Assembly (NCBI RefSeq): GCF_000152825.2
Contig: NC_014414.1
Span: 2,294,001 to 2,358,000 of the forward strand
Origin: Parvularcula bermudensis HTCC2503
GTDB taxonomy: Bacteria; Pseudomonadota; Alphaproteobacteria; Caulobacterales; Parvularculaceae
Direction of reading: 5' to 3'
DNA length: 64,000 bases
Below the pieces are notes generated by a model. The model made no database searches. It was not told the DNA's origin and saw only the letters and a list, made by a program, of their open reading frames with translations. Below, piece after piece: positions 22,092 to 59,044 of this stretch (the first letter of the stretch is position 1; each line of letters starts with the position of its first letter). The position numbers and the translations under genes were made by a program.

Positions 22092-22140
22092 CCTCCACAG
22101 GCTAGGGGAAATTCCCTTTTGCCTGTGGAGGTTTTCTTTT
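22092..22140 (+). terminator. strong hairpin plus T-tract just before gltD; contains the gltD Shine-Dalgarno
   Basis: CCTCCACAGGC (22092-22102) pairs perfectly with GCCTGTGGAGG (22121-22131). The loop can add a further AGGGGA/TTCCCT stem, and TTTTCTTTT follows. It looks like an intrinsic terminator for amt-torF. The GGAGG at 22127-22131 in its 3' arm lies seven bases before the gltD TTG start, so the hairpin would also hide the ribosome-binding site: possible attenuation or translational control of gltDB. Confidence 0.7.
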
Positions 22141-32980: not shown

Positions 32981-33061
32981 GATCGTCTGCCCTCTGGTCG
33001 ACCCTGTTCCCGTTTTTGGTAGAGTATGCCAAGAACGAAAGTGCAGAAAGTATTTTCGTCG

Positions 33062-33093
33062 CCGGGCTCTCGCGTTGCACGCGGGCAGCCCGG
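33062..33093 (+). promoter_or_regulatory. leader hairpin before the purine operon
   Basis: CCGGGCT and AGCCCGG form a 7-bp outer stem around a CGCG/CGCG inner stem. It ends 12 bases before the AGGAG of the amidase gene. It may be a terminator for the GMC gene (no T-run) or a leader structure controlling the operon. Confidence 0.35.
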
Positions 33094-33117
33094 GGATGGG
33101 TCGGCAGGAGCGGCACC

Positions 33118-38741: not shown

Positions 38742-38742
38742 C

Positions 38743-41582: not shown

Positions 41583-41911
41583 GCGGTTTGTCCACCCATA
41601 TTCTCGACCTGACCTGCGGCCAACCGGCAGTGGGGGTCGCTGTATCCCTATTCCGCGAAGAGACCCTTCTTGGGGCGGACAAAACCAATGAGGATGGTCG
41701 CTGCCGATCACTTCTGGGAGAGCGGGCCCTGACACAGGGGGCCTATCGGTTAATGTTCTCCGTAGGCGACTATTTCAAGGAAAAGGACCCTGACATCGTC
41801 CCCTTTTTCGATACCGTTTCCATCGACTTTGTGGTCAGCGATGTCTCTCGGCACCACCACGTCCCCCTCTTGGTGACGCCCCATGCCTATTCGACCTATA
41901 GGGGGAGCTGA
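41579..41911 (+). CDS. uraH: 5-hydroxyisourate hydrolase (transthyretin-like)
   Basis: 110 residues, the usual size. N-terminal LSTHILDLTCGQPAVGVAV contains the conserved His, DKTNEDGRC carries an Arg, RHHHVPLLVTPHAYSTY has the His-rich strand, and the protein ends in the diagnostic YRGS. Converts HIU to OHCU. The ATG overlaps the flavoprotein stop by ATGA. Confidence 0.97.
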   Translation: MSGLSTHILDLTCGQPAVGVAVSLFREETLLGADKTNEDGRCRSLLGERALTQGAYRLMFSVGDYFKEKDPDIVPFFDTVSIDFVVSDVSRHHHVPLLVTPHAYSTYRGS

Positions 41912-41914
41912 TCA

Positions 41915-42940: not shown

Positions 42941-44095
42941 ATGACCCATCCCCATTTCACTAAAGCGCGCCTATTATTGGCGCCCGCCCTCCTCAGCCTC
43001 ATGGCTGCGTGCGGCGATAATGCGCCGGAACCCATTTCCGAACCCGAGGCGGACGCCGCCTCCTCGATGGTTGTCCTTGCCCAGCCGGACATGGACGAGA
43101 GCACGCCCCTGCCCGTCAAAGTGGTCATCGTGACCATGTTTGAAATCGGTGAGGATAGCGGCGATCAGGCCGGGGAGTTCCAATTGTGGAACGAGCGCCT
43201 GGACCTCGACACGGTTCTGCCCAATCCCGGCGGCCATCATGCCTATCACTATAATCCCGAAACCCAGATTCTCGGCATGGTCACCGGTATCGGGACCGCC
43301 AAATCCACCGCGGCGATTATGGGGCTAGGTCACGATGACCGCTTCGATGTCAGCAAGGCCTATTGGCTCGTGGCAGGGATTGCCGGCATCGACCCCGAAG
43401 ACGCATCGATCGGATCGGCGGCCTGGGCCACCTATCTGGTGGACGGGGATCTTGCCCACGAAATCGATCCACGTGAGATTCCGGAGGATTGGGAAACCGG
43501 CTATTTCGCTCGCTATACAACGGGTCCGAACGATCCCAACCGGCCCGAACCGACCGGGGAATTGTTCATCGCCAACACGGCCCTTCGCGATTGGGCCTTT
43601 GAGCTGACAAAGGATATCGAGCTTCCAGACGATCCGCAGATCGCAGAAGAACGGGCCAGTTTTACCGAGCATCCCATGGCGCAAAAACCGCCCTTCGTGC
43701 TGAAAGGCGCCCAATTGGCCGCCATGACCTTTTGGCACGGCGAAATGATGAATGATTGGGCCAATGATTGGGTCGCGTATTGGACCGATGGCGAGGGCGA
43801 TTTCGTGACCTCCGCCATGGAGGATACGGGCACCTTCCAGGCGCTGACCTATCTCGACGGCGCCGGCCTTGTGGATAAGGATCGCGGCATGGTTCTCCGG
43901 GCGGGGAGCAATTACACCATGCCGCCCCCCGGCGTAACGGCTGTGGATTATCTCCTCCGGGAGAACGAGGAATATAGCGGCCTGAATGCCGCCCTTGAGT
44001 CGCTTTATCTGGTCGGCTCGACGGTCATCGACGAATTGATCGAGAACTGGGATGTCTATGGCGACACGGTCCCCGGCAGCGACGCCGCGGAGTGA
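42941..44095 (+). CDS. purine nucleoside permease (NUP) family lipoprotein
   Basis: 384 residues. Lipoprotein signal with lipobox LMAAC|G. The mature part matches the NUP family: KVVIVTMFEIGEDSGDQAGEFQ, GIGTAKSTAAIMGLG, YWLVAGIAGIDPEDASIGSAAWA, TFWHGEMMNDWANDW, SAMEDTGTFQALTYL and LRAGSNYTMPPPG. Despite the name there are no membrane helices, and the sequence layout recalls nucleoside phosphorylases, so a periplasmic nucleoside-cleaving or binding role is plausible (inference). GGAGA precedes the ATG, 42 bases after the cupin gene. Confidence 0.82.
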   Translation: MTHPHFTKARLLLAPALLSLMAACGDNAPEPISEPEADAASSMVVLAQPDMDESTPLPVKVVIVTMFEIGEDSGDQAGEFQLWNERLDLDTVLPNPGGHHAYHYNPETQILGMVTGIGTAKSTAAIMGLGHDDRFDVSKAYWLVAGIAGIDPEDASIGSAAWATYLVDGDLAHEIDPREIPEDWETGYFARYTTGPNDPNRPEPTGELFIANTALRDWAFELTKDIELPDDPQIAEERASFTEHPMAQKPPFVLKGAQLAAMTFWHGEMMNDWANDWVAYWTDGEGDFVTSAMEDTGTFQALTYLDGAGLVDKDRGMVLRAGSNYTMPPPGVTAVDYLLRENEEYSGLNAALESLYLVGSTVIDELIENWDVYGDTVPGSDAAE

Positions 44096-44110
44096 TCGCA
44101 CGAGCTGCCT

Positions 44111-44140
44111 TTGCGTCCTTCCGCCCTCGGAAGGATGCAA
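44111..44140. terminator. strong hairpin between convergent genes
   Basis: TTGC-g-TCCTTCCG, loop CCCT, CGGAAGGA-t-GCAA: 12 base pairs with one internal mismatch, 15 bases after the NUP stop. No T-run is present on either side. The rest of 44096-44273 shows nothing recognisable. Confidence 0.55.
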
Positions 44141-44273
44141 GGGAGCCTTAGGTAAGGGAAGACCACAATCGTCTCGAATATAATCAAGCGCGCCGTGGCC
44201 CCGTTCGCATAAAGCCAAGGCGATGGCTCAATGAGAAAGAGACGCTTTTCCACCAAGAGTGATCGACACGGCG

Positions 44274-45572
44274 TTAGGCGGCGTCGATCAACGCGAATTT
44301 TACAAGAAACAACAGGGCGAGGATAAGGACGCCGGGCGTGGCCTGGGCAATCCGCCCGGTCAGGAGTTTCAGCACCGCATAGGTGATGAACCCAAGCCCG
44401 ATCCCCGTGGCGATGGAATACGTCAAAGGCATTGCGACCGCCGTGACCACGGCCGGCACGAAACTCGTCACATCGTCCCAATCGACCTCGGTCAGCCCCC
44501 TCACCATGACGCACCCGACAAAGACAAGGGCGGGTCCGGTGGCATAACTCTGAACCGCGCCCGCCAGGGGAGCAAAGAATAAGGCCAGCAGGAAGAGTAG
44601 CGCGACGGTCAGGGCTGTCAGACCGGTGCGCCCCCCTGCCCTGACGCCCGCTGCACTCTCCACATAGCTGGTGGTGCTGGACGTCCCAAGAAGGGAGCCG
44701 ATGAGCGTCGCCGTACTGTCAGCGAAGAGCGCCAATCTCAAACGCGGCAACTTGCCATTCTCGTCGAGCAGTCCCGCACGCTGGGCCACGCCGACAAGCG
44801 TTCCCGCCGTGTCAAACAGATCGACGAAAAGAAAGGAGATCACGACACTGACCAACGCTAGATTGAACGCCTGTTGAAGATCAAGGGCGAAGAGGGTCGG
44901 CGCAATCGACGGCGGCGGCGCCACCACGCCCGGCACAGGAGAGATGCCCAAGATCACCCCGGCAAGCGTCGTCGCACCAATCCCGAGAATAATGCCGCCA
45001 GGGACCTTCAAGGCCTCAAGAACGCCGATGATCAAAAAGCCAAAGGCGGCCAGCCAAAGGGTGGGTTCGGCCAGATTGCCCAAGGTCACAAGGGTGACGG
45101 GGTGGTCGGCGATCATTCCCACACTGCTCAGCCCTATGATGATTAAAAACAGTCCCAGACCCGCCGTGATCGCCTGTTTCAGCTCAAGGGGGATCGCGTT
45201 GATGATCCACTCGCGTATGGGCAGCAGGGTGAGAGCGATAAAGATGACGCCGGAGAAAAAGACCGCGCCGAGGGCGACCTCCCATGGGATCCCCAGGCCG
45301 AGGACAACCCCATAGGTGAAAAAGGCATTGAGCCCCATCCCGGGGGCGAGAGCGATCGGATAATTGGCGAGAACGCCCATAATCGCCGTGCCAATCGCGG
45401 CGGCCAGACAGGTCGCAACAAAGACGGCGCCGCTGTCCATGCCCGCTTCGGAGAGGATCAACGGATTGACGACGATAATATAGGCCATGGCCAAAAAGGT
45501 CGTTACGCCCGCAATGATTTCGCGACTGACCGTCGTCCCCTGTGCCTCAAGACCAAAAAGCCGCTCGATCAT
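44274..45572 (-). CDS. NCS2-family AzgA-type purine-base permease
   Basis: 432 residues with a dozen or more hydrophobic helices. Start 45572 (AGGAG ten bases upstream) gives the family N-terminus MIERLFGLEAQGTTVSREI; the longer frame to 45653 is not convincing. AzgA hallmarks: AGVTTFLAMAYIIVVNPLIL, ANYPIALAPGMGLNAFFTY, DLFDTAGTLVGVAQRAGLLD and the signature GTSSTTSYVESAAGVRAGGRTGLT. AzgA-type proteins import hypoxanthine, adenine or guanine with protons. It is divergent from xdhA, which would oxidise the imported base. Confidence 0.93.
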   Translation of the reverse strand: MIERLFGLEAQGTTVSREIIAGVTTFLAMAYIIVVNPLILSEAGMDSGAVFVATCLAAAIGTAIMGVLANYPIALAPGMGLNAFFTYGVVLGLGIPWEVALGAVFFSGVIFIALTLLPIREWIINAIPLELKQAITAGLGLFLIIIGLSSVGMIADHPVTLVTLGNLAEPTLWLAAFGFLIIGVLEALKVPGGIILGIGATTLAGVILGISPVPGVVAPPPSIAPTLFALDLQQAFNLALVSVVISFLFVDLFDTAGTLVGVAQRAGLLDENGKLPRLRLALFADSTATLIGSLLGTSSTTSYVESAAGVRAGGRTGLTALTVALLFLLALFFAPLAGAVQSYATGPALVFVGCVMVRGLTEVDWDDVTSFVPAVVTAVAMPLTYSIATGIGLGFITYAVLKLLTGRIAQATPGVLILALLFLVKFALIDAA

Positions 45573-45720
45573 TCTGTCCCAACTCCTCAACCGTCTCTCA
45601 GGCTTCCCCGGCTGGCCCCAACTGGCCGTCCTGCCAAGGCGATCTACGCACACGCAAGAGGTTTTGGCAAAAACGGCTGCCCTCTGGCCATAAACGAAAG
45701 ATTTTGCGTAAGATCGGCTT

Positions 45721-47232
45721 ATGGTCGATCAAAGCGACACTTCCGATGACCGGGTGAGATTCGTCCTCAATGGAGAGGTCAGATCGATCGCGCGCCCGGA
45801 CCCCACCTCCTCCTTGCTCTCTTGGCTGCGTTATGACGCGCGCCTTACCGGAACGAAGGAAGGATGCGCGGAGGGCGATTGCGGCGCCTGTACGGTTGTC
45901 GTGGGAGAGCGGCGACGCGGGAAAATACGCTATCGCGCACTCAATGCGTGTACCCTCTTTTTGCCCATGGTCGATGGACGTGAGGTCATCACGGTCGAGG
46001 CGCTCTCCACCGGTGAGCGGCTGCACCCCGTTCAGCAAGCCATGGTCACCTGCCACGGCTCGCAATGCGGCTTTTGTACCCCTGGCTTTGTGATGTCCTT
46101 ATTCGCCCGATATGAGGGGAAGGACGATTGCATGTCTGGGGATCTCAATGACTGCCTGGCGGGGAATCTCTGCCGCTGCACAGGCTATGGCCCCATTCAG
46201 CAGGCGGGAGACATGATGACCTCCCTTCCCGCCGAGGGGCTGAAGATCGACGAGGAGGCCGCGCATCGGCGGCTGGATAGTCTCGCGCGGACCTCCCCCC
46301 TTGCCTATCGTTACGACGAACCGGCCACCGCCACGACGAAGCATTTCTTCGCCCCCAAAAGTCTCGCGGCCCTGTTATCCCTGAAAGCGACCTATCCGAA
46401 CGCGACGCTTGTGGCGGGCGCGACAGATGTCGCCCTATGGGTGAACAAGGACTTCCGTGTGTTGATTGAAATTATTTCGGTCAACGACGTTGAGGAATTG
46501 CGGTCGGTGACGGAAGACGATACCGTGCTGACGATTGGCGCCGGTGTAAGGTATACCGATGCCTTAGGGCCGCTGGTCGCGCTCTATCCCGCCTTCGGTC
46601 GTTTTCTCAGCCGACTTGGGGCGACACAGGTCCGAAATTCGGGCACGATCGGCGGCAATATTGCCAATGGATCTCCTATCGGGGATAGCCCTCCGGCCCT
46701 AATTGCCCTTGGGGCCACCTTGGTCCTCGCCTCCTCGTCGGGGGAGCGGCGGCTGCCCCTTGAGGAATTTTTCCTCGATTACGGCAAGCAAGATCTGCGA
46801 CCGGACGAAATCGTGAAGGCGATTATCGTGCCGAAGCGGTCTCCTGATCAACTTGTCGCCTTTCGCAAAATTTCCAAACGCTTCGACCAAGACATCAGCG
46901 CCGTCTGCGGTGCCTTCTCCCTTCACGTCAGTGAGGGGATTATCCGTTCGGCGCGCGTCGCCTTTGGCGGCATGGCCGCGACACCAAGGCGCGCCCATGG
47001 CTGTGAAGCCGCCTTGGCGGGCGCTCGATTGAGCATGGAGGGGATAGCTCCGGCGCTGCGTGCTCTCACAAAGGATTTCACCCCCTTGAGCGATCTGCGC
47101 GCCACGGCGGCGTATCGACAGGCGGCCGCCCAGGCCCTGTTGGCTGCGATGATGAGGGAGGTCGATGCCTCAACGGCACCGATCGATCTGTACGACATCC
47201 CGCCGATCGCGGTGGAGGCCACCAATGCCTGA
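45721..47232 (+). CDS. xdhA: xanthine dehydrogenase small subunit (2Fe-2S, FAD)
   Basis: 503 residues. First 2Fe-2S cluster: GCAEGDCGACTVV plus the Cys in RALNACTLFLP. Second cluster: SQCGFCTPGFVMS and CLAGNLCRCTGYGPI. The FAD domain follows (TLVAGATDVALWVNK, RNSGTIGGNIANGSPIGDSPPAL) with the CO-dehydrogenase-flavoprotein C-terminal domain. Transfers electrons from XdhB to NAD. It overlaps xdhB by 8 bases. The 148-base gap before it is the divergent promoter region with the AzgA permease. Confidence 0.96.
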   Translation: MVDQSDTSDDRVRFVLNGEVRSIARPDPTSSLLSWLRYDARLTGTKEGCAEGDCGACTVVVGERRRGKIRYRALNACTLFLPMVDGREVITVEALSTGERLHPVQQAMVTCHGSQCGFCTPGFVMSLFARYEGKDDCMSGDLNDCLAGNLCRCTGYGPIQQAGDMMTSLPAEGLKIDEEAAHRRLDSLARTSPLAYRYDEPATATTKHFFAPKSLAALLSLKATYPNATLVAGATDVALWVNKDFRVLIEIISVNDVEELRSVTEDDTVLTIGAGVRYTDALGPLVALYPAFGRFLSRLGATQVRNSGTIGGNIANGSPIGDSPPALIALGATLVLASSSGERRLPLEEFFLDYGKQDLRPDEIVKAIIVPKRSPDQLVAFRKISKRFDQDISAVCGAFSLHVSEGIIRSARVAFGGMAATPRRAHGCEAALAGARLSMEGIAPALRALTKDFTPLSDLRATAAYRQAAAQALLAAMMREVDASTAPIDLYDIPPIAVEATNA

Positions 47233-49591
47233 CCATGGCGAGCCCCAACACCCTGAACAGACCAGAGAGATTAGGGGCGGGGTCCGACAATCCGTCGCCC
47301 ATGAAAGTGCGGTCCGTCATGTCAGCGGGACCGCGAAATATATCGACGACCTCCCAGAGCCGCCCGGCCTTCTCCATCTCGCCTTTGGTGTATCGACGAA
47401 AGCCCATGCGACTATCCTCAATTGCGACCTCTCCGCCGTGCGCAACTATCCAGGCGTGGTTGCGGTATTGACCGCCGATATGATCCCTGGCCGGAACGAT
47501 ATCGGCCCTGTGATTAAGGATGATCCGCTATTTGCGGAGAATGAAGTCGTCTTTCATGGCCAGCCGATTTTCGCTGTCGTGGCGGAAAGTTATGACGGCG
47601 CGAGGCGAGCGGCCAGCCGCGCCAAGGTGAGCTATGGCGATCTGCCCGCCTATCTCGACATAAAGGCGGCCAGCCAGCACGGCTCCCTCATCGAAGAGAC
47701 CCAACATATGGGCGCCCCGGTCGAAGAGGTCCGCCGACATATCGCGGAGGCCCCGCATCGGATAAGGGGAGATCTGACGATTGGCGGGCAGGACCACCTC
47801 TACCTCGAAGGACAGATCGCCATGGCGATTCCCGGTGAGGATCGCGAATTGCACGTCTTTTCTTCGACCCAGAACCCCACCGAGGCCCAGCATCTGATTG
47901 CTCAGGTTCTCGGTCGCGCCGATCACGACATCGTTGTCGAGACCCGCCGCATGGGCGGTGGGTTTGGGGGCAAGGAAACCCACCCTGCCCTCCCCGCGAC
48001 CGCCGCGGCCCTCGCCGCCAGTCTGACCGGTCGGCCGGTGAAATGTCGTCTGACCCGGGACGAAGACATGATCATGACGGGTAAGCGTCACGATTTTCAA
48101 GCAGCCTATGAGGCAGGTATCGATGACGAGGGCCGCATGATCGGCGCCCATGTCGAGCTATCGTCGAGATGTGGTCATTCTACGGATCTGTCCATGGCCG
48201 TTAATGACCGCGCCATGTTTCATGTGGACAACACATATTTCCTAGGCCTCGCGGCGATCACCTCCCATCGGTATCGTACCCACACCGTCTCCAACACCGC
48301 CTTTCGCGGGTTTGGCGGCCCCCAGGGCATGCTGGCTGGTGAGCGGATGATGGATCAGATCGCTTTTGAGCTGAATGCTGACCCCTTAGATATTCGCCTC
48401 GCCAATCTCTACCGGAAAGGCCGCAATCTGACCCCTTACGGCCAGACGGTGGACGACGGTATCGCGCGTGAGCTGATTGAACGTGTTGCTCTTGAGGCAA
48501 ACTATCGGGAGAGGCGGGCGGCCATTGACGCGTTCAATCGCGAAAGCCCGGTCCTCAAACGCGGGATTGCTCTTACGCCGGTGAAATTCGGGATCTCCTT
48601 CACTTCGACCCACCTTAATCAGGCGGGGGCGCTTGTGCATGTCTATCTCGACGGCAGCGTCCAGGTGAACCACGGCGGCACGGAGATGGGTCAGGGCCTC
48701 ATGACAAAGGTGGCCCAGGTCGTTGCCGAAGAATTTCAGATCGATCTTGAGCGGATACGCGTGACATCGACCCGTACGGACAAAGTCCCCAACACCTCGG
48801 CGACCGCCGCCTCCTCCGGTTCAGACCTCAACGGTATGGCCGCAGCCAATGCGGCCCGCGAAATCAAACATCGGCTGACCGCTTTTGCCGCAGACCGATA
48901 TGGGGTTTCGCCCGAGGAGATTCATTTCCGCAGCGGCAAGGTCTATGTAGGGAATGTCCCCCTTACCTTTACCGAAATTGTGGCCGCGGCCTATCGCGCG
49001 CGCATTTCGCTGTCGCAAACCGGATTTTATCGAACGCCGAAAATCCACTATGACCGGGCGACCCATCGTGGACGGCCGTTCTACTATTATGCCTATGGCG
49101 CCGCTGTCAGTGAGGTGGCCATTGATGCGACAACGGGGGAAAGCCGCGTCATGAAGGTCGATATTCTTCACGATGTCGGGCGCTCCCTCAATCCGGCGAT
49201 CGACCGTGGACAGATCGAAGGGGGATTCATCCAGGGGCTCGGTTGGCTGACAAGTGAGGAACTGGTCTATGATTCAGAGGGGCGTCTGCGCACCCACGCG
49301 CCGTCGACCTATAAAATCCCCACTGCGCGGGACCGCCCGGCCGCCTTTACCATCGATATTTGGGAGCGGGGAGAGAACAAGGAAGAGACGATCCACCGGT
49401 CAAAAGCCGTGGGCGAACCGCCCTTCATGCTCGCGATCTCTGTCTTCTCTGCGCTCACCCATGCTGTCGCAGCGGTGGGCGAGCATCGGGTCTTTCCCGC
49501 GCTTCAAGCCCCCGCCACCCCTGAAGCGATCCTTATGGCGATCGAGGATATCCGGCGGCGGATGGAACCGGGGGCGAAAGGGGTCTCGTGA
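47225..49591 (+). CDS. xdhB: xanthine dehydrogenase molybdopterin-binding subunit
   Basis: 788 residues. Start 47225 overlaps the xdhA stop, with GGAGG just upstream; the earlier frame lies in xdhA. Oxidises hypoxanthine and xanthine to urate at the Mo cofactor. Motifs: SGTAKYIDDLPEP at the N-terminus, Moco-binding RMGGGFGGKE and TAFRGFGGPQGM, NHGGTEMGQGL, TAASSGSDLNG and the catalytic-Glu segment AVGEPPFMLAISV near the C-terminus. Confidence 0.96.
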   Translation: MPDHGEPQHPEQTREIRGGVRQSVAHESAVRHVSGTAKYIDDLPEPPGLLHLAFGVSTKAHATILNCDLSAVRNYPGVVAVLTADMIPGRNDIGPVIKDDPLFAENEVVFHGQPIFAVVAESYDGARRAASRAKVSYGDLPAYLDIKAASQHGSLIEETQHMGAPVEEVRRHIAEAPHRIRGDLTIGGQDHLYLEGQIAMAIPGEDRELHVFSSTQNPTEAQHLIAQVLGRADHDIVVETRRMGGGFGGKETHPALPATAAALAASLTGRPVKCRLTRDEDMIMTGKRHDFQAAYEAGIDDEGRMIGAHVELSSRCGHSTDLSMAVNDRAMFHVDNTYFLGLAAITSHRYRTHTVSNTAFRGFGGPQGMLAGERMMDQIAFELNADPLDIRLANLYRKGRNLTPYGQTVDDGIARELIERVALEANYRERRAAIDAFNRESPVLKRGIALTPVKFGISFTSTHLNQAGALVHVYLDGSVQVNHGGTEMGQGLMTKVAQVVAEEFQIDLERIRVTSTRTDKVPNTSATAASSGSDLNGMAAANAAREIKHRLTAFAADRYGVSPEEIHFRSGKVYVGNVPLTFTEIVAAAYRARISLSQTGFYRTPKIHYDRATHRGRPFYYYAYGAAVSEVAIDATTGESRVMKVDILHDVGRSLNPAIDRGQIEGGFIQGLGWLTSEELVYDSEGRLRTHAPSTYKIPTARDRPAAFTIDIWERGENKEETIHRSKAVGEPPFMLAISVFSALTHAVAAVGEHRVFPALQAPATPEAILMAIEDIRRRMEPGAKGVS

Positions 49592-50631
49592 GTGTCGACT
49601 GGCGACACGCGGCCATTTCGGCCCTGACGGAAGGGCACCCCGTCGCCCTGATCCGGCAATGCAGTGTACGGGGATCAACCCCCCGTGAAGCCGGCGCCAA
49701 AATGGTCGTGACCGAGACCTCAACGGCGGGAACCATAGGGGGCGGCCAGTTGGAATGGCAGGCGACCGATCAGGCCCGGCGCCTCCTCGCCCAACCGGAC
49801 CTGACCTATCGTCTCCAGGATTACCCTTTAGGGCCGATTCTTCAGCAATGCTGCGGCGGTTTTGCCCGCCTTCTGATCGAACGCCTCGGGCGCGAAGACC
49901 TCAACTGGCTATCCGCCGGAGATAACGGATCGTCTGGGGCCTATATCAAAACCGAGTGGGGGCAAAATACGCGATCGACCATCCCCATCTCCCAAGCAGC
50001 CTGGCCGGAGCAGGCCCACGACCGGATCGTCCTTGTCGACAAAAGCGACCGCCCCCTCACCGCCAACGATCCCCTATCCCATGTGGCCGCCGTCTACGAA
50101 CATCTTTCGCCCCCGCCCCGTCCTGTCGTGATTTTCGGTGCAGGCCATGTCGGTCAACGTCTCGCGCATATCATGTGCCAAACGGACCGTCCCGTCGCAG
50201 TGATCGACACGCGCGCCGAGAGCCTTTCCGCCCTCGCGGCTTTGCCCCTCAAGACCTATCTGACGGAGATGCCGGCCGCCGAACGATCCCGATTTCCCCT
50301 CAACTCAGACTTCGTCGTGCTCACTCACTCCCACGAACTCGACTATATGATCGTTTTGAACATTCTCAGTTCGCCGGCAACAGGCCTGTGCGGATTGATT
50401 GGGAGCCGGACGAAAAATCAGCGTTTCCTTAGACGGCTGAGGCAGGATGGGGTGACGGAGCTGCGGTGTTCTGATCTGACCTGCCCCATCGGGGCGGGTG
50501 TGCTTAAGGGGAAAACCCCCGCCGCGATTGCGATCGATATCGCAGCGGGCCTCCTCCAGCGGGATGAAGAAGCCATCGATTCGGGCCTCTCTCTCACCGC
50601 TCCCACCACCCAACTCATCGCCGCGGAATGA
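49588..50631 (+). CDS. xdhC: xanthine dehydrogenase accessory protein XdhC
   Basis: 347 residues. Binds and protects molybdenum cofactor, helps its sulfuration, and inserts it into XdhB. N-terminal XdhC-CoxI domain with RGSTPREAGAKM, GTIGGGQLE and QCCGGFARLL; C-terminal Rossmann domain with VVIFGAGHVGQRLAH and THSHELDYMIVLNIL. GTG start overlaps the xdhB stop (GTGA). Confidence 0.94.
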   Translation: MSVDWRHAAISALTEGHPVALIRQCSVRGSTPREAGAKMVVTETSTAGTIGGGQLEWQATDQARRLLAQPDLTYRLQDYPLGPILQQCCGGFARLLIERLGREDLNWLSAGDNGSSGAYIKTEWGQNTRSTIPISQAAWPEQAHDRIVLVDKSDRPLTANDPLSHVAAVYEHLSPPPRPVVIFGAGHVGQRLAHIMCQTDRPVAVIDTRAESLSALAALPLKTYLTEMPAAERSRFPLNSDFVVLTHSHELDYMIVLNILSSPATGLCGLIGSRTKNQRFLRRLRQDGVTELRCSDLTCPIGAGVLKGKTPAAIAIDIAAGLLQRDEEAIDSGLSLTAPTTQLIAAE

Positions 50632-51920
50632 CAGCCCCACCACTTGCTCTCCGGTCCTCCCTCGCCTGGCTACGTGCTGATCCAGCTCATCACCCGGACG
50701 CCCTTGTCTATCACGAGGATGGCCTGATCTTTCTATCGGGGGGCCGTATTCAGATGGCCGGGCCCTTCGATCAGTTGGTCGGTCAGCTTCCGAGCCAGAT
50801 CTCTCCCGAAGAGATAAAGGACGCCCTCGTCATCCCTGGCCTCATTGATCTTCACACACATTTTCCTCAAACGGATATGATAGCATCCTACGGGGAGCAA
50901 CTTCTCGATTGGCTTGCCAACTATACTTTTCCAACAGAGTTGGCTTTTGCGGATGCAGCACATAGCCGAGAGGTTGCAAGAGCCTTCACTGACGAACTTA
51001 TCCGGCATGGAACGACCACCGCGTTGGTGTTTGGCACCGTCCATGCCGAGGCCGTCGACCACCTATTCTCTGAGGCCGCTGCGATCAATATGCGGATGAT
51101 CGCCGGAAAGGTGCTGATGGATCGCAACGCCCCAGAGGGATTATTGGATGGCGCTGATTATGGAGAAGCCGCCTGTCGACACTTGATCGAGAAATGGCAC
51201 GGATATCAGCGCTTGTCATATGCGCTCACCCCTCGCTTCGCGCCGACATCATCTCCCGACCAACTCGCCATGACGGGGCGGCTTCTTGCCGAAACCCCCT
51301 CTCTCTATCTCCAGACCCATATGTCGGAAAACCCCTCGGAAATTGCTTGGGTCACCTCCCTTTTTCCCGAATGCGAGGGCTATCTTGATACCTATGACAC
51401 CTTCAATTTAGTGGGGTCACGATCCGTCTTTGCCCATTGTATCCACCTTACCGACCGGGAACGGACCCGACTGGCCGACGCAGGCAGTTCCATCGCCTTT
51501 TGTCCGACATCAAATCTTTTTCTTGGCAGTGGATTGTTCGATTATGAGAAGTGCAAGCAGGCAAACCTTTCCATCGGTTTGGGGACGGATATAGGGGCGG
51601 GGACAAGCTTTTCCCTCCTCAGCACGATGGGCGAAGCCTACAAGGTGGGCCAATTGCGCGGTGCCCCTCTCCCCCCCTGTGAGGCGTTTTATATGGCCAC
51701 ACTCGGCGGCGCCAAAGCCCTTTCGCTTGACCACGCCATTGGCACATTGGCGCCGGGGACGGAGGCGGATCTTGTGGTTCTTGATATGAAAGCGACATCG
51801 CTCATCGGCCGTCGCATGGCCAATGCGCCGCGTCTCGAAGACCGTCTCTTCGCGCTCGCCATCCTAGGCGATGACCGCGCCATCGCCCGGACCTATATCG
51901 ACGGTCGGCGTGTGAAATGA
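50628..51920 (+). CDS. guaD: guanine deaminase
   Basis: 430-residue amidohydrolase converting guanine to xanthine, feeding Xdh. Metal and active-site motifs: LIDLHTHFPQTDMIASYG, HMSENPSEIAW, VFAHCIHL, AFCPTSNLFLGSG and GLGTDIGAGTSFSLL, the standard GuaD set. ATG overlaps xdhC by ATGA. Its stop directly abuts the stop of the convergent adenosine deaminase gene (TGATCA), with no spacer. Confidence 0.96.
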   Translation: MTAPPLALRSSLAWLRADPAHHPDALVYHEDGLIFLSGGRIQMAGPFDQLVGQLPSQISPEEIKDALVIPGLIDLHTHFPQTDMIASYGEQLLDWLANYTFPTELAFADAAHSREVARAFTDELIRHGTTTALVFGTVHAEAVDHLFSEAAAINMRMIAGKVLMDRNAPEGLLDGADYGEAACRHLIEKWHGYQRLSYALTPRFAPTSSPDQLAMTGRLLAETPSLYLQTHMSENPSEIAWVTSLFPECEGYLDTYDTFNLVGSRSVFAHCIHLTDRERTRLADAGSSIAFCPTSNLFLGSGLFDYEKCKQANLSIGLGTDIGAGTSFSLLSTMGEAYKVGQLRGAPLPPCEAFYMATLGGAKALSLDHAIGTLAPGTEADLVVLDMKATSLIGRRMANAPRLEDRLFALAILGDDRAIARTYIDGRRVK

Positions 51921-53486
51921 TCAATAGGCGTCTTCGAACGCGGCAAAGCGCCGTTCGAGGTCGATCTGCAATCGCGCTTTTTCGCTGTCATCGGCGAAGC
52001 GTCGGCAAGCCCGGCTGTCAAAGCGTCCGCGACAGGCCGAAATGAGGCGACCTGCCGCAACATCTTCGAACAGGGGCGCCCCCGGCAGGAAAGACGATTG
52101 CAAGCTCTGCCGAGAAAGGGTCTTCAGATCCTCATAGGACAGATCGTATCGCTCAGCCGCCAATTGATACTCTGTCGTCAAATCGTTTCGCAGCACGCCT
52201 TCGTCATCCGTCGACAGAACGATGGGGACACCAAACTGCCGATAGGTGGTGATCGGGTGTTGGTCCCCCTTAACCCCTAAAATGACCTCATTACTCGTCA
52301 GGTTGATCTCAACCGTTACGCCCTGGTCGGCCATTTGTTGCAATAGCGCGGGCGCATCCGTCTCATAGCCGATACCCACGCCGTGCCCAATTCGGCGCGC
52401 CCGCGCCACATCGACCGCCTCACGGATATGATAGGTCATATCCTCAAGCTCGGTCAGCCCTGACCACAGCTCACCGGCATGAAGGGTAAACCCCACTTCG
52501 GGATATTTCTCTGCAAAATAAGCGAACATCTTCATATGGAGACGATAATCGCGGAGGGCGATGGCAGCATGTTCCGGTGCCAGAATATTGACACCAACAC
52601 TCAGAGGGTCCTCCGCCGCAATCATAAAGTGCAGCATTATCTGCGAGAAGACCAATTCCGGCGGGAGCGTCCTGACAGCTGCCCCTAATTGGCGATACGC
52701 GACGGCACAGCCGGGTGCGGGCGTGTCGGAGTCGCAGCGCAAAATGGCGTCGGCCTCTGCCGCCATCTCGGCAAGAAGGGCGCGCCCGGACGACACCAAT
52801 TCGGCCATGCCCCCCGCCATCAACGCCTCTTCATAGGCGGCAAAGTCCGCGTCGGTCTCACCATTAAGTGTTTCGGTGACCCCCATCTGGGCAGGGATGG
52901 GAATCCCCAAAGACCATATGGGCTCGACATAGACAATATTCTGAAGGGCCGCCGTTTCTCTGATCCAGGCAAGGCTTTCCCCGCGATAAGCCCGAAAGGC
53001 GGGATAGAAACGATCGAAGGTCGAAAAGAAATGGTCCGCCCCGGAATTGTCCCCAGGCTTACCCGAAGGGGCGAAATTCCGCACCGAAAACGACTCAATA
53101 GCTGCGCTGCGACAATCTTCGTCCGTTATAAGGACACTGACTCGCACATTTGTCCCCGCCGAGCAGGACGACGCGATCTCCTCGACCTGACTACAGGGAA
53201 CGAACGCAGGGTCCTCCGCGGCGTAACAGAGCTCCGGGTCCTCAGCCCCATCCGCCGTCCATTCGATCAAGCTCTCTGCATATACCGCTCCAGGCAAATG
53301 CGTATGCAGATCGCCACCCTTTGGCATTGCTTGAAGAAACGCTCTCCCTTGCGTGAAGTCGCCCCTTATCTCTTCGAAGAAAGCCGCCGTCGCTTCGGTC
53401 GGCCGGGTATCCTCCCCGCAGGACACCACGTTACCCGCCGCCAGTAGCGCGAAAACGCTGAGGAGAATGCGCATTGTCAGCCCCAT
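51921..53486 (-). CDS. exported adenosine deaminase-family lipoprotein
   Basis: About 521 residues. Signal with lipobox-like VVSC|G (starts possible at 53486 or 53474, MRILLSVFALL). The catalytic set is intact: MPKGGDLHTHLPGA (metal His pair), FTLHAGELWSG (His and catalytic Glu), ARRIGHGVGIG and VLSTDDEGVLR (Asp pair). Length and the insert before the barrel resemble secreted ADGF/ADA2-type deaminases rather than the about 340-residue cytoplasmic enzyme. Should convert (deoxy)adenosine to inosine outside the cytoplasm. Last gene of a minus-strand group, 10 bases after the preceding deaminase. Confidence 0.87.
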   Translation of the reverse strand: MGLTMRILLSVFALLAAGNVVSCGEDTRPTEATAAFFEEIRGDFTQGRAFLQAMPKGGDLHTHLPGAVYAESLIEWTADGAEDPELCYAAEDPAFVPCSQVEEIASSCSAGTNVRVSVLITDEDCRSAAIESFSVRNFAPSGKPGDNSGADHFFSTFDRFYPAFRAYRGESLAWIRETAALQNIVYVEPIWSLGIPIPAQMGVTETLNGETDADFAAYEEALMAGGMAELVSSGRALLAEMAAEADAILRCDSDTPAPGCAVAYRQLGAAVRTLPPELVFSQIMLHFMIAAEDPLSVGVNILAPEHAAIALRDYRLHMKMFAYFAEKYPEVGFTLHAGELWSGLTELEDMTYHIREAVDVARARRIGHGVGIGYETDAPALLQQMADQGVTVEINLTSNEVILGVKGDQHPITTYRQFGVPIVLSTDDEGVLRNDLTTEYQLAAERYDLSYEDLKTLSRQSLQSSFLPGAPLFEDVAAGRLISACRGRFDSRACRRFADDSEKARLQIDLERRFAAFEDAY

Positions 53487-53496
53487 TTCATCGTCG

Positions 53497-54861
53497 TTAG
53501 GCCAGCGTTTTAAGGCGCTCTGCCAGTCGGTTCAATCTTGCCACGAGGTGCCCCTCATCAGCCATGGTCAGGCGCCCCTCCTCGACGATAAGCCGGCCTT
53601 CCACCATGACATGGCTCGGTCGACGTGGCGCACAAAGAATGAGCGCAGCGACAGGGTCCCAGGCCCCCGCGGCGGCAAGTTCGCCTTGCGGCCAAAAGGC
53701 AAGATCGGCCCGCATCCCCACCGCCAATTGTCCCGTATCGCATCGCCCCAAGGTCTCGGCGCCGCCGCGGGTGGCAAGACGAAGGGCAGCCCGAGCGGAG
53801 AGCGCGTCCGCCCCCTCTTTCGCCCGTTGCATGAGCAAAGCCTGACGCGCCTCGCCGATCAGATCGCCTGAATCGTTTGACGCCGACCCGTCAACTCCAA
53901 GCCCCACCCGCGCCCCATGGCGCAGATAGCCCACGATCGGCGCGATACCCGACCCAAGCCGGCCATTTGAGCACGGGCAATGGGCAACACCCGTGCGGGT
54001 CCGACCGAACAGAAATTGCTCTTCCTCAGTCAACTGAACGCAGTGCGCGTGCCAGACATCCTCTCCTACCCAGCCAAGATCCTCGGCATAGTGACCAGGG
54101 CGGCACCCAAATCGGTCGAGGGAGAAGCGAACGTCTTCTACATTCTCAGCAAGATGGGTGTGCAGCATCACGCCTTTGGCCCGGGCCATCTGTGCCGTTT
54201 GTCGCATCAATTCCTGGCTCACCGAAAAGGGCGAGCAGGGAGCCAGGGCAATACGGAGCATACTGCCATCTGAGGGATCGTGATAACGCTCGATCAACCG
54301 CTCGCAGTCTTTGAGGATTGCCGCCTCGTCCTCGACGAGATCATCCGGGGGCAGCCCCGCCTTAGACTGACCGATACTCATCGACCCGCGGGTTGCGTGA
54401 AATCTCACCCCTATTGTCTGGGCCGCGGCGATTGTATCGTCGAGCTGGATACCGTTGGGATAAAGATAGTGGTGATCACTGGTCAGGGTACACCCGGATA
54501 GAACCAGTTCAGCAAGCCCAAGACTGACCGCCGCGTCGACATCTTCGGGCGTCAGACGCCGCCACAGGGGATAGAGTGTCTTCAACCACCCAAATAGCGG
54601 CACATCGAGCGCCGCCGGCACGGCCTTGGTGATCGACTGAAACAAATGATGGTGGGTGTTCACAAGACCCGGCGTAACCACACAATCACGGGCCGAGAAG
54701 AACGTCAGATTGCCTTCCGTCTTTGGGGGGATGGCCCCCGGGGTGCCGAGATCGGTGATCACCCCGTTCTCGATGAGAATATAGCCTCCCTCCCACTCCC
54801 GCTGATCATCATCCATGGTGACAATGACTGCCGGGTCTGTGATCAGCACACGGCCTTTCAC
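53497..54861 (-). CDS. 8-oxoguanine deaminase-like amidohydrolase
   Basis: 454 residues of the TrzN/AtzB/8-oxoguanine deaminase group: VVTPGLVNTHHHLFQSITK, HTHLAENVEDV, VWHAHCVQL, GVAHCPCSNGRLGSG and LGVDGSASNDSGDL. In this group HCPCSN-type enzymes mostly deaminate 8-oxoguanine to urate, which fits a urate-degrading locus; hydroxyatrazine-type hydrolysis cannot be excluded by sequence. GTG start overlaps the permease stop (GTGA). Confidence 0.85.
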   Translation of the reverse strand: MKGRVLITDPAVIVTMDDDQREWEGGYILIENGVITDLGTPGAIPPKTEGNLTFFSARDCVVTPGLVNTHHHLFQSITKAVPAALDVPLFGWLKTLYPLWRRLTPEDVDAAVSLGLAELVLSGCTLTSDHHYLYPNGIQLDDTIAAAQTIGVRFHATRGSMSIGQSKAGLPPDDLVEDEAAILKDCERLIERYHDPSDGSMLRIALAPCSPFSVSQELMRQTAQMARAKGVMLHTHLAENVEDVRFSLDRFGCRPGHYAEDLGWVGEDVWHAHCVQLTEEEQFLFGRTRTGVAHCPCSNGRLGSGIAPIVGYLRHGARVGLGVDGSASNDSGDLIGEARQALLMQRAKEGADALSARAALRLATRGGAETLGRCDTGQLAVGMRADLAFWPQGELAAAGAWDPVAALILCAPRRPSHVMVEGRLIVEEGRLTMADEGHLVARLNRLAERLKTLA

Positions 54862-56186
54862 TCTTTGTCCTCTAATGGCGGAAGCGCGAGTGACATGACA
54901 ATAGCGAGAAAAGCGGCCGGCAGAACGCCGGAAGCAAGGAGGATTTGGGCGAGGGAGGGCAGATGTTGCAAGGCATCAGGAACCAATTGGAGACCTAAAC
55001 CGACCGACAGCGAGGTTGCGAAGATCAGCAGGTTTCGTTGCGACCATGTCACCTCACTTAGCATCGACAAGCCTGCTGCGGCCACCATCCCAAACATGAT
55101 GACCACACTGCCCCCCAACACCTCAATGGGGATGGTCACGATCGCAGCACCGATCTTTGGGACCAGGCCGCAAAGAACGAGGAAAACCGCCCCGAGGGTT
55201 ACAACATGGCGGCTCATCACCCCGGTCATCGCCACGAGACCGACATTCTGGCTAAAAGAGGAATTAGGCAGCCCCCCGAATAGCGCGGCGATCAAGGTCC
55301 CTGCCCCATCGGCAAAGGTGGCGCCCGTCAGCTCCCGATCCGTGGCGCGCCGACCGGCGCCTGATTGGGTGATGGCCGAGACATCGCCGATGGTTTCGAT
55401 CCCCGAGACGAGGACAATCAGACAGAAGGAGACGATCGCCGCCGCCGAAAACGAGACGCCGAAGGGCAAAGGCTCCGGCAACAAGAACCATGCGGCATCG
55501 CTCACGGCGACCGTGTCGATCCGGCCAAAGACCGCAGCCACCGCGTAGCCGGTAAGAATTCCCAATAGGACCGACGCCGTAGAGAGCAATCCCCGGCCAA
55601 AGAATTTGAAGCCAAGGGTCGCCATCATAACGACCAGGGCCAACGCCCAGCTCTCCCCTCGGCCAAAAGCCGCCGTCCCTTGGGACGGGACGCCCCCAGC
55701 GGAATATTGGATCCCAACGCGGATCAATGACAGCCCGATCATGAGGACGACCAGTCCCGTGACGAGAGGCGGCAAGGCGAAGCGAATCCTCGGCACGAGG
55801 GGGGCAAGGAGCAAATGAAAGATCCCCCCGCATAGCGCCCCGCCATAGAGCGCCGACAAGGAGGATACCCCACCTCCACTGACAAGGGGAATCATGATTG
55901 GTAGAAAGGCAAAGCTGGTGCCCTGAACAATCGGCAATCGTGCCCCGATCGGTCCAAGACTGATGGTCTGGAGAAGGGTGGCAACCCCCGCAAAGACCAT
56001 CGACGCCTGAATCATCACAATGAGGGGCGTTTGGTCGGCCGCGCCAAAGCCAATACCCGCCGCCCCCGCCACGATGACGGCCGGGGTCACATTGCTCACA
56101 AACATAGCGAGGATGTGCTGCACCCCGAGCAGAATCGACACGCCAAGGGGCGGAAAATAATCTGGATCGCGATACGATCCAGACAT
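54858..56186 (-). CDS. NCS2-family (UraA/NAT type) xanthine/urate permease
   Basis: 442 residues. Start 56186 has GGGGAG five bases upstream; the longer frame to 56288 has a non-family N-terminus. Opens DYFPPLGVSILLGVQHILAM with many hydrophobic helices, then GIETIGDVSAITQ and the NAT signature SQNVGLVAMTGVMSR. The NAT/UraA branch transports xanthine, urate or uracil; the neighbouring deaminases favour xanthine/urate. Different from the AzgA-type permease in the same locus, so two base carriers are present. Confidence 0.9.
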   Translation of the reverse strand: MSGSYRDPDYFPPLGVSILLGVQHILAMFVSNVTPAVIVAGAAGIGFGAADQTPLIVMIQASMVFAGVATLLQTISLGPIGARLPIVQGTSFAFLPIMIPLVSGGGVSSLSALYGGALCGGIFHLLLAPLVPRIRFALPPLVTGLVVLMIGLSLIRVGIQYSAGGVPSQGTAAFGRGESWALALVVMMATLGFKFFGRGLLSTASVLLGILTGYAVAAVFGRIDTVAVSDAAWFLLPEPLPFGVSFSAAAIVSFCLIVLVSGIETIGDVSAITQSGAGRRATDRELTGATFADGAGTLIAALFGGLPNSSFSQNVGLVAMTGVMSRHVVTLGAVFLVLCGLVPKIGAAIVTIPIEVLGGSVVIMFGMVAAAGLSMLSEVTWSQRNLLIFATSLSVGLGLQLVPDALQHLPSLAQILLASGVLPAAFLAIVMSLALPPLEDKE

Positions 56187-56422
56187 TGCAGCTCCCCGAT
56201 CAATGTCTTCATCGGTGTTTACTGATTTACGGCCCGAGGACTCTCCGCTGTCGGATGATGAGGGGGAGAGAGTGACGTTCCTATTCAAACGACCCTCCCC
56301 TTCTTGCGTTACGCTCGTTGAGGACGGCCACGTCCGTCACCTCCCCCTGCCGCCCCGCAGCCCCGCGGTCCGAGAGTGTGAAGGACCGGGGGGCACTCGG
56401 GAGATAGGCGATCGGTCTGCCC
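56187..56422. other. gap between TonB receptor and NCS2 permease
   Basis: 236 bases on the path from receptor to permease. I see no gene, no clear terminator and no riboswitch I can recognise. A small plus-strand frame across it is the antisense of the receptor's 3' end. Confidence 0.4.
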
Positions 56423-58942
56423 TCAGAACTTATAGACAACCGATGCCTGGAAGCTCCGCGGCATTTCCGGAAGAACGATGGTGCTGCCGAAGAGCTCCGT
56501 AAAGTTCGCGCGGAAATATTCCTCGTCCGTCAGGTTTTTGACCGTCGCCTGGAACAACCAGTTCTCATACTCATAGGACGCGCTGGCATCGACGAGCGTG
56601 TAAGCCGGCAATTCGACCGCTTGGGACTGACCCGAGAATACCTCCTCGACATCGACCACGCTGCCGCTCAAGGACAACCCATTATCAAAAGCGTAAGTCG
56701 CGGTGAGAGAGTAGATATTTTCCGGGATCCCGGCGCGACGGGCCGCATCTTCATCCGGAATGGTGAGGAGCCCAATCGGCTGCGCCCCATAGAACAGGGA
56801 CGGATCGCTGACATTCACCAAGTCTTCCGCTCCGAAGAAACTGAACAATGTCCCCTCTTCCAGACCGGTTAGGTTGACGACCTCGGTCTTGGTATAGGCG
56901 CCGGTGATCAGAAGATTATCGGTCGCTGCCCAGCGAAACTCCGCCTCAAGACCTTCGGTCTTGACCGATTGGTTCACCGTGATCGACTGAGCGTTAAAAT
57001 CGACCCGCTCCTGTTCATAGACCGACAGCGCTGTATACAAACGATCGTCGAAGAAGCTGCCCTTGATCCCGAATTCAAGCAGTTCCGAAGCGCTGAACCA
57101 TGTACCCGCGGCGAGATTGTCGACAGTAATTTCCGCCCCCTGTCCCGCAACGACCGTCGATTGCTCCGAGGCCGTCACATAGGGCACGACTCCGCCGGGC
57201 AGATCGTAGGAAAGGCTGGCCGTCCAGGAGACTCCATCGTCTTCGTCGGACGCCGAGGGAAGGTAATCGCTGCCAATAATCGCCGGGTCGAGCCGGGCGG
57301 TGTGGTTGAACGATTCCGCATCGATGTAATCGTAGCGGACCCCCAGAATGACATTCAGACCCATTTCGAAATCAAGGTCGAACAGCCCGGCAAGACCGTA
57401 ATTGATGTAATCGCCTTCGACATAGGTTGAATAATTCTCGTCCCCCTCCGTCGACAAAAGCCTATCGGACTGAGCGGTATAAGGATTGGGGCTCGACAGA
57501 TCGGCCCGATGGAAAAATTCGTAGTCGAAATCATCTCCGTGGAGAAAATCGGTATATCTGATCGACGGAGAAATCTGGGTCGTGAATACGCCGAGATCGT
57601 TCTCAAACGCTTTTTTGACGATGAGTTTCCCTTCCATCACCCAGGAGTCATGGAATTGGGAGAAGCCATAGTCGTTTTCGTTCTCGTTCTCATACCCTTC
57701 GAAGAACAATTGGCTGATCAACTCGAACCCATCATCGTTCTCGTAAATCGAGTCAAAATAGAAGGTGAGGGTTTTATTCTCGAGAAAGTCATCCTCACCG
57801 GTCAATACATTGCGACGATCGAGGGTCGTCTCCCCAACATCGGTCAAAGCCAGACCGGGGAGGGAGTTCATCAGACACGCATCGGTCATACCTTCGGGGC
57901 CGACCCCGAAACTGGCAACATCCGACGGATCACAAACAAAGTTACCGAACGGATTGAACACACCGGCCGCATCGAATTCCCGGCGCCCCAATTCCCCATC
58001 GCCGTTTTGATCCACGGCTTGGGCGGTCCCCGTTACATATGTCCCATTGTCCACCAATTCCTGGGTCAGACGGTTCCAGCCCCCGTTCTGCTGGCCGTAA
58101 AAATCGTGGTACATAAACCCGAATTCGACCCGCAGATTATCCGACATATATTTGTCGAACGCCCCCTGCAGGATCGTCTGCTCGGTGAACATGTTGCGGT
58201 AATAGCTGCCCGAATCCTCGACTTCAGCATAGAGATGATAGCCGAACTCCTCACCGAGAATGTTACCAGGTCCCGTGAGCGCGGCGCTGAGAACACTCTT
58301 GTTCCAGCTCCCCCCCGTATAAGTTATTTCCCCCTCAGGAACGGTCATCAACTCGCCCCCCGCAACCCGCGCGGTCTTGGGCACGAAATTCATATACCCG
58401 CCGGTTTTGGACGGACCGTAGATGACAGAAGCGGGGCCCCGGACGATATCGATTCGGTCGGACGCCCCGATAGGCGTTGGATAATTGCCCGGATTGTCGA
58501 GGCGACGAACCCCCCGGAAATACACTTCGCCGGGAGTCCCGCGAATATCGAGAGCGCCCCCGATCCCAAAGAATGAGTTGGTGAAGGTCCCCGGCGCTTG
58601 GGCAACGAGGCCATAAATATCGGTGATGCCGAAGCGCTCGATCTGCTCGGCACTGATAGTCGACGCCGAGCGCGGCGTTTCCACAAGGTCTTTGTCAAAA
58701 CCAAAAACCGAGCCCACATCCTCCACCGGCAGCGCCCTCAGGCTCCCTTCGACGACGATCGTGTCGGTGAAAACCTCCGGCTCTTCTTCCTGGGCGAAAG
58801 CGCCCCCCTGCAGAGCAAATGCAGACCCCATCAGCGCCACGACCAGAGCGCGCGAGCTCACCAAAGATCGGCTGCCTCTTGAGAGGCCCCTCTGCGATCC
58901 CGTATCCGGTTGATTGCATGATGTTGCCGTCATCGAGAGCAT
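56423..58942 (-). CDS. TonB-dependent receptor of the purine locus
   Basis: 839 residues from ATG 58942 (AAGGGG seven bases upstream); an ATG at 58972 is less good. Signal-type segment RALVVALMGSAFALQGGAFA-Q, TonB box EVFTDTIVVEGSL, plug motifs DIRGTPGEVYFRGVRRLDN and RIDIVRGPASVIYGPSKTGG, and a full barrel ending SFQASVVYKF with terminal Phe. By family it groups with siderophore-type receptors, but its place upstream of a purine permease and deaminases suggests a purine or nucleoside ligand (inference). Confidence 0.88.
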   Translation of the reverse strand: MLSMTATSCNQPDTGSQRGLSRGSRSLVSSRALVVALMGSAFALQGGAFAQEEEPEVFTDTIVVEGSLRALPVEDVGSVFGFDKDLVETPRSASTISAEQIERFGITDIYGLVAQAPGTFTNSFFGIGGALDIRGTPGEVYFRGVRRLDNPGNYPTPIGASDRIDIVRGPASVIYGPSKTGGYMNFVPKTARVAGGELMTVPEGEITYTGGSWNKSVLSAALTGPGNILGEEFGYHLYAEVEDSGSYYRNMFTEQTILQGAFDKYMSDNLRVEFGFMYHDFYGQQNGGWNRLTQELVDNGTYVTGTAQAVDQNGDGELGRREFDAAGVFNPFGNFVCDPSDVASFGVGPEGMTDACLMNSLPGLALTDVGETTLDRRNVLTGEDDFLENKTLTFYFDSIYENDDGFELISQLFFEGYENENENDYGFSQFHDSWVMEGKLIVKKAFENDLGVFTTQISPSIRYTDFLHGDDFDYEFFHRADLSSPNPYTAQSDRLLSTEGDENYSTYVEGDYINYGLAGLFDLDFEMGLNVILGVRYDYIDAESFNHTARLDPAIIGSDYLPSASDEDDGVSWTASLSYDLPGGVVPYVTASEQSTVVAGQGAEITVDNLAAGTWFSASELLEFGIKGSFFDDRLYTALSVYEQERVDFNAQSITVNQSVKTEGLEAEFRWAATDNLLITGAYTKTEVVNLTGLEEGTLFSFFGAEDLVNVSDPSLFYGAQPIGLLTIPDEDAARRAGIPENIYSLTATYAFDNGLSLSGSVVDVEEVFSGQSQAVELPAYTLVDASASYEYENWLFQATVKNLTDEEYFRANFTELFGSTIVLPEMPRSFQASVVYKF

Positions 58943-59044
58943 AAGTCTTCCCCTTGTCGCCCAGTCACTCATTCGAAGTCATCAATGCGAAAACGCACAG
59001 CGAGGGAGGACATTTGATGCCCCCCAGCCCCTCGCAAAACCCGC

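Follow-up and report, generated by a model that had tools for sequence, protein, structure and literature searches.

The 64,000-nucleotide window analyzed here, positions 2,294,001 to 2,358,000 of contig NC_014414.1 of Parvularcula bermudensis HTCC2503 (a 2.9 Mb genome on one contig), contains, from about 33.0 to 59.0 kb, what is probably a purine nucleoside utilization locus, leading from import by a TonB-dependent receptor through urate to ureidoglycine. Its central components are the receptor, a lipoprotein of the NUP family (PF06516), an ADGF/ADA2-like deaminase lipoprotein, two NCS2 permeases (NCS2a and NCS2b) and a set of purine-degrading enzymes. Pfam and NCBIfam scans of the ten proteins encoded at 42941-58942 recovered all the gene families that a first-pass annotation had named there. 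The limits it had given hold for gene content and not for extent: the system continues past them, with a catabolic plus-strand run of nine genes (33016-42898), all in the same direction and overlapping or separated by at most 43 bases, leading into the NUP gene.

If this reading is right, the locus would hold the path from adenosine or guanosine to ureidoglycine. The receptor would pull purine nucleosides across the outer membrane; in the periplasm the ADA2-like lipoprotein, in which the expected residues are seen, would convert adenosine to inosine, and NUP would hydrolyze inosine and guanosine to base and ribose. Hypoxanthine/guanine and xanthine would cross the inner membrane by way of the two NCS2 permeases, GuaD, 8-oxoguanine deaminase and xanthine dehydrogenase (Xdh) would carry the bases to urate, and the adjoining gene run would lead from urate via 5-hydroxyisourate (HIU), 2-oxo-4-hydroxy-4-carboxy-5-ureidoimidazoline (OHCU), allantoin and allantoate to ureidoglycine and ammonia. 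On the minus strand the receptor gene comes first, followed by those for NCS2b, 8-oxoguanine deaminase and the deaminase lipoprotein. The genes of the locus are as follows.

33016-34671, plus strand: amidase, opening the plus-strand run, with an uncertain start codon (PF01425, 278 bits, Pfam)
34665-36254, plus strand: gamma-glutamyltransferase-like (GGT) protein, which we take to be HpxW-like (PF01019, 354 bits; TIGR00066, 281 bits, below its cut-off of 358)
36248-37534, plus strand: allantoate amidohydrolase, M20 family (NF006775, 512.8 bits, cut-off 479)
37524-38741, plus strand: class-V aminotransferase (PF00266, 65 bits; no NCBIfam cut-off reached)
38743-39642, plus strand: allantoinase PuuE (TIGR03212, 499 bits, cut-off 424.6)
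39632-40168, plus strand: OHCU decarboxylase UraD (TIGR03164, 171.6 bits, cut-off 96)
40152-41582, plus strand: FAD monooxygenase, between the UraD and HIU hydrolase genes (PF13454 and PF13434, above cut-off)
41579-41911, plus strand: HIU hydrolase (TIGR02962, 115 bits, cut-off 87)
41915-42898, plus strand: Cupin_5 (DUF985)/Cupin_2 protein with a hydrophobic, leader-like N-terminus (PF06172, PF07883)
42941-44095, plus strand: NUP lipoprotein, predicted periplasmic purine nucleosidase (PF06516, 377 bits, cut-off 27)
44274-45653, minus strand: NCS2 permease a, presumably AzgA/PbuG-like (PF00860, 179 bits, cut-off 27; no NCBIfam match)
45721-47232, plus strand: XdhA, xanthine dehydrogenase small subunit (TIGR02963, 590 bits, cut-off 467)
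47225-49591, plus strand: XdhB, xanthine dehydrogenase molybdopterin subunit (TIGR02965, 1217 bits, cut-off 849.5)
49588-50631, plus strand: XdhC maturation factor (TIGR02964, 243 bits, cut-off 161.6)
50628-51920, plus strand: guanine deaminase GuaD (TIGR02967, 563 bits, cut-off 375)
51921-53486, minus strand: ADGF/ADA2-like deaminase lipoprotein (PF00962, A_deaminase, 86 bits, cut-off 27)
53497-54861, minus strand: 8-oxoguanine deaminase (NF006055, 661 bits, cut-off 532)
54858-56288 (true start may be 56186), minus strand: NCS2 permease b, xanthine permease family pbuX (TIGR03173, 414.5 bits, cut-off 414.15)
56423-58972, minus strand: TonB-dependent receptor, heading the minus-strand run (plug PF07715, 53 bits, cut-off 24)

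Predicted nucleosidase and deaminase outside the cytoplasm

From its predicted fold and gene context, we infer that the PF06516 protein NUP would be a nucleosidase with the fold of 5'-methylthioadenosine/S-adenosylhomocysteine (MTA/SAH) nucleosidase (MTAN), misnamed 'permease'. Its structure model consists of a single α/β domain of MTAN fold behind a low-confidence leader and does not resemble a polytopic membrane protein (as judged from the model, no membrane-segment program having been used), and its best fold matches are MTANs, among them a periplasmic one. The fold is read from the model: a PDB profile search with NUP gave no match and hence no solved relative by sequence, and the futalosine hydrolase model TIGR03664 scored 16.3 bits, below its cut-off of 124.7. 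The leader of the window NUP, read from the translation, has the lipobox-like end LLSLMAAC-GD; by a crude rule, 35 of 81 close NUPs have a lipobox and most of the others a signal-like leader, so that NUP looks exported. In four relatives, belonging to Halieaceae and another gammaproteobacterial genome, NUP is fused to an inosine-uridine (IU) nucleoside hydrolase and the fusion has a leader-like N-terminus (L035:11966-14236, L054:11917-14037, L059:5865-7982 and L073:15990-18101). Together the export-like leader, the MTAN-fold model and these fusions strengthen the earlier proposal that NUP cleaves nucleosides in the periplasm.

NUP residues E68, E294, R320, S323 and N324 are invariant in 52 of 52 aligned sequences, and by motif position the two Glu and the Asn may correspond to MTAN E12, E174 and D197. 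The invariant Asn of the RxxSN motif stands where MTAN has Asp197 (the aligned 1z5o chain is an Asp197Asn mutant), and 6-oxopurine purine nucleoside phosphorylases have Asn at this position. As a feature of the alignment that is suggestive only, this Asn would fit a preference of NUP for 6-oxopurines and hence a need for the deaminase. Across loci, some of them counted twice, 11 NUPs have Asp and 104 have Asn, with 19 unread by the pattern; all 11 Asp NUPs lie in loci without receptor and deaminase, as do 26 of the 104 Asn NUPs. In one genus, a gene for the nucleoside channel Tsx directly precedes NUP in five of five genomes (L133, L142-L145), and these Tsx-linked NUPs have Asp in the RxxS motif. 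The Asp/Asn split tracks phylogeny, which leaves it no more than suggestive. In a quick tree of 123 NUP rows, 7 of them poorly filled, the rows at least 56% identical to the window NUP formed one group with support of 99; the label 'TBDRtype' in that tree denotes this identity threshold, not an observed receptor. Elsewhere in the window genome, an exported MTAN-like protein (L125:1492-2334) carries a RAGSN motif, as NUP does.

Two other roles for NUP were weighed. That it is a true nucleoside permease, as the PF06516 family is named, or a non-catalytic binding protein would be compatible with the lack of a solved relative by sequence, yet it is very unlikely in view of the single α/β domain of MTAN fold, the leader or lipobox, and the invariance of E68, E294, R320 and S323. 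An MTAN-type enzyme for recycling or detoxifying methylthioadenosine or SAH, placed in a purine locus for adenine disposal, would agree with the MTANs, one of them periplasmic, being the best fold matches. We nevertheless consider this improbable: the two PNP_UDP_1 proteins of the genome are already an MTA phosphorylase (MTAP) and the separate exported MTAN-like protein, relatives have NUP fused to an IU nucleoside hydrolase or accompanied by a PfkB sugar kinase, and Asn is invariant at the position of MTAN Asp197. NUP shares 14% identity with the periplasmic MTA/SAH nucleosidase of Aeromonas hydrophila (5b7q), from which it departs by having Asn in place of Asp in the catalytic motif and by its gene context.

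The deaminase lipoprotein, with the lipobox-like end GNVVSC-GE in its translation, is the sole PF00962 match in the genome. Residues H61, H63, H336, E339, H368, D427 and D428, which we take to be the zinc-binding and catalytic residues of adenosine deaminases, are kept in 19 of 19 aligned sequences, and this conservation in the only such protein of the genome supports the suggested periplasmic deamination. Four cysteines are conserved in all 19 and two more in 18, which fits an oxidizing compartment. By the crude rule, a lipobox is present in 4 of 30 deaminases and a leader or lipobox in 29; as far as can be read from the sequences, lipid anchoring is not conserved across NUPs and deaminases. 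The structure model (pLDDT 85.9, pTM 0.86) is matched with similar Z by adenosine deaminases (ADAs) in general; human ADA2 aligns over 402 residues and single-domain ADAs over 306-347. The fold matches also include ADGF-related AMP deaminases, which makes AMP a possible substrate. Compared with ADA2/ADGF adenosine and AMP deaminases, the window protein is bacterial, carries a lipobox and stays below the TIGR01431 (ADGF/ADA2) cut-off (38.5 bits against 315), with other ADAs equal in Z.

A genome search returned neither a CNT nucleoside carrier (the NupG type and Bmp ABC carriers were not searched for) nor an IU nucleoside hydrolase, in keeping with the idea that bases rather than nucleosides cross the inner membrane. 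Each step of the sequence first proposed, from import through periplasmic deamination and cleavage to base import, thereby gains support, with the exception of the exact cargo of the receptor.

Recurrence of the receptor and its partners

A NUP profile identified 414 loci in named genomes. The 80 most similar to the query, 54 of them full length, were analyzed with 10 kb flanks, a choice that biases the counts towards the arrangement of the window. These loci come largely from sphingomonads and gammaproteobacteria, and their clusters of de novo open reading frames were named from one representative each or from window genes, some small ones by eye. Among the 80 loci, the receptor ortholog was found in 62, the exported deaminase in 56, amidohydrolases of GuaD/8-oxoguanine deaminase type in 42, a further A_deaminase family (its representative without an evident leader) in 33, NCS2b in 28, a LysR regulator in 26 and NCS2a in 23; by tblastn, 65 loci have the receptor and 61 the deaminase. 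The receptor adjoins NUP in 43 of the 62 loci that have both, 36 on one strand. Of the 54 full-length loci, 48 contained the receptor (51 when a second receptor family is counted as well), 39 the deaminase and 28 an NCS2 permease, and 38 combined receptor, NUP and deaminase. The search in related genomes that had been suggested thus found the set again in other families and in another class. Beside the locus, DUF1552 and ankyrin-repeat proteins occur in 11 of the 54 full-length loci (L031, L033, L034, L050-L052 and others), those sampled being from sphingomonads. A cupin cluster is present in 10 of the 80, and a second receptor copy (L128) also has a cupin nearby.

Receptor orthologs of at least 45% identity sit in NUP/purine loci, and the ortholog group spans such loci of two classes. 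Five receptor paralogs (31-36% identity) lie in places without the purine genes of the window, one weak amidohydrolase match excepted, and a quick tree of 70 receptors separates them with full support from the receptors of NUP/purine loci; a sixth, more distant receptor is on a very long branch. In seven gammaproteobacterial loci, receptor and NUP are accompanied on one strand by genes for DUF3450, two ExbB-like proteins, ExbD, TonB and a tetratricopeptide-repeat protein, and this cassette points to an energized import step.

NUP is rare among relatives, occurring in 11 of 149 genomes including that of the window. The receptor, at 64% identity or more, occurs in four of the 149, all four with NUP, the other three being of one genus (g16). 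In 398 genomes of the phylum, a close receptor (at least 50% identity) was present in 6, NUP in 26 (25 above cut-off) and both in 5, a co-occurrence with a Fisher p of 3.8e-6 (5e-5 without the window genome) that overstates independence, all five other receptor genomes being from one family (f184). Those five genomes have six receptor copies. Five belong to purine loci, of which four also have NUP and one does not; the sixth adjoins genes for an NCS1 permease of purine/allantoin type, a DUF985 cupin, a LysR regulator and a chemoreceptor. A class sample of 337 genomes contained NUP in 6 (4 above cut-off) and a receptor in 5, with both only in the window genome and the other four receptors being paralogs of 33-36% identity.

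NUP alone was rejected as a marker of the system: NUPs 28-50% identical to that of the window occur without a close receptor, one of them (L116) having a receptor match of 28% nearby, and receptor paralogs of 31-36% identity are found away from NUP.

Cargo of the receptor and standing of the proposal

We infer nucleosides as the cargo of the receptor, in preference to bases or nucleotides. A purine scavenging locus whose receptor mainly imports something else is a possibility of some weight, if a rather unlikely one: the cargo would be bases of low solubility (guanine, xanthine or urate) or phosphorylated compounds (nucleotides, short oligonucleotides or NAD-like molecules), and NUP and the deaminase would act on products arising in the periplasm. 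It would account for a purine locus that has the receptor and further purine genes without NUP (genome G493), a second receptor copy beside an NCS1 purine/allantoin-type permease (G739) and a 5'-nucleotidase-type protein in 5 of the 80 loci, and it draws on the AMP deaminases among the fold matches and on the ability of nucleosides to pass porins. It is opposed by the direct adjacency of receptor and NUP in 43 of 62 loci and by the Tsx nucleoside channel that replaces the receptor before NUP in another genus. We give little credence to an ordinary siderophore receptor merely neighboring a purine catabolic cluster: the named PDB matches of the receptor are indeed siderophore or metallophore receptors, but its match to TIGR01783 (TonB-dependent siderophore receptor) is 134 bits, short of the cut-off of 223.5, its ortholog group is kept in NUP/purine loci of two classes with a TonB cassette in seven loci, and its five nearer paralogs lie away from such genes.

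Several observations count against nucleoside import as we propose it, beyond the sampling bias, the single-family origin of the co-occurrence, the siderophore-type PDB matches and the G493 locus already mentioned. Nucleosides are small enough to pass porins. The first-pass annotation had placed receptor and NUP in a single locus; both are present, but not as one operon, since in the window genome they lie on opposite strands 12.3 kb apart and form separate transcription units. Profile alignment of NUP with the MTAN-like homolog of its own genome was not significant, and neither was that with MTAP. Receptor, NUP, deaminase and an NCS2 permease coincide in only 20 of the 54 full-length loci, and 5 of the 54 have no further purine gene within the flanks. 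In the stretches examined, one of the three g16 genomes (G082) shows no deaminase, and the seven NUP loci of family f3, six of which have NCS2a adjoining NUP, contain the receptor in none and the deaminase in three. Two perfect inverted repeats lie near the start of the receptor gene (59045 and 59124), and no palindrome type was shared by more than two upstream regions of 54 orthologous receptors, where the iron box was not scanned with a model.

Our judgment is evenly balanced on the broader proposal, in which a dedicated clade of receptors, driven in some gammaproteobacteria by a TonB-ExbB-ExbD motor of its own, would import purine nucleosides in a recurring proteobacterial system; an ADA2-like enzyme and NUP would process them outside the cytoplasm, the receptor-linked Asn NUPs being specific for 6-oxopurines and dependent on the deaminase, while Tsx-linked NUPs keep Asp.

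Urate breakdown, neighboring genes and known systems

The oxidative purine degradation set (Xdh, HIU hydrolase, OHCU decarboxylase, allantoinase and allantoate amidohydrolase) is present with every member above its curated cut-off. Uricase had no match in the genome (PuuD and HpxO were not searched for), and together with the placement of its gene between those for OHCU decarboxylase and HIU hydrolase this makes the FAD monooxygenase (40152-41582) a candidate urate hydroxylase of HpyO type. HpyO is described as a urate hydroxylase in PMC4562309. The aminotransferase (37524-38741) is probably of ureidoglycine-glyoxylate type, a specificity read from gene position alone. In relatives, an amidase is found together with GGT, M20 and AGXT genes. 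An ammonium transporter and two glutamate synthase subunits are encoded at 19865-28092, ending 5 kb before the purine run, which fits a supply of nitrogen from purines.

Elsewhere in the window, a TonB receptor is apparently split at 2401-5378 (minus strand) into adjoining frames for plug (4467-5378) and barrel (2401-4470). At 10345-12524, a cobalamin riboswitch precedes genes for a TonB receptor, FecCD, a binding protein and an ATPase, a region of ordinary B12 uptake, and a phage-type integrase beside tRNA-Thr and tRNA-Tyr (14586-16209) likely marks an integration site.

The nearest described system known to us is the Rus locus of Bacteroides thetaiotaomicron (BT2803-2809), which reportedly combines outer-membrane SusC/SusD import with an exported nucleoside hydrolase and ribokinases. 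Rus serves ribose, whereas the window locus would be directed at the base and has, in addition, an exported deaminase and an adjoining Xdh-urate-allantoin path; no SusD family member was seen among the ten span proteins or three genes scanned beyond. One account of Rus (PMC12596196) presents it as a ribose utilization locus that includes a ribose carrier and is linked to nucleosides. Hpx/Puc-type purine clusters resemble the window locus in Xdh, GuaD, urate oxidation, HIU hydrolase, OHCU decarboxylase, allantoinase and allantoate amidohydrolase. To our knowledge, the first step of these clusters is base import, and neither a TonB receptor nor exported enzymes for nucleosides belong to them. 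Tsx, with its gene directly before NUP in the genus mentioned above, offers outer-membrane nucleoside entry, as the window receptor would; it is a passive channel of another family, in place of which the window has a TonB-dependent receptor. In line with the first reading, which knew of no such description, we found no open-licence paper that describes this combination as a system, and a main-text word search of a survey of marine TonB transporters (PMC3400609) found no purine, nucleoside, xanthine, nucleotide or nucleobase.

The locus is a real, recurring system and a new variant of TonB-fed utilization loci, with nucleosides as its putative cargo. If the proposal is true, it would add a new cargo class to TonB-dependent transport in Proteobacteria and give a bacterial counterpart of the secreted ADA2 enzymes. 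The PF06516 'permease' family would be re-annotated as an exported nucleosidase, and the pathway would suggest how diverse bacteria convert the remains of extracellular DNA, RNA and ATP to nitrogen.

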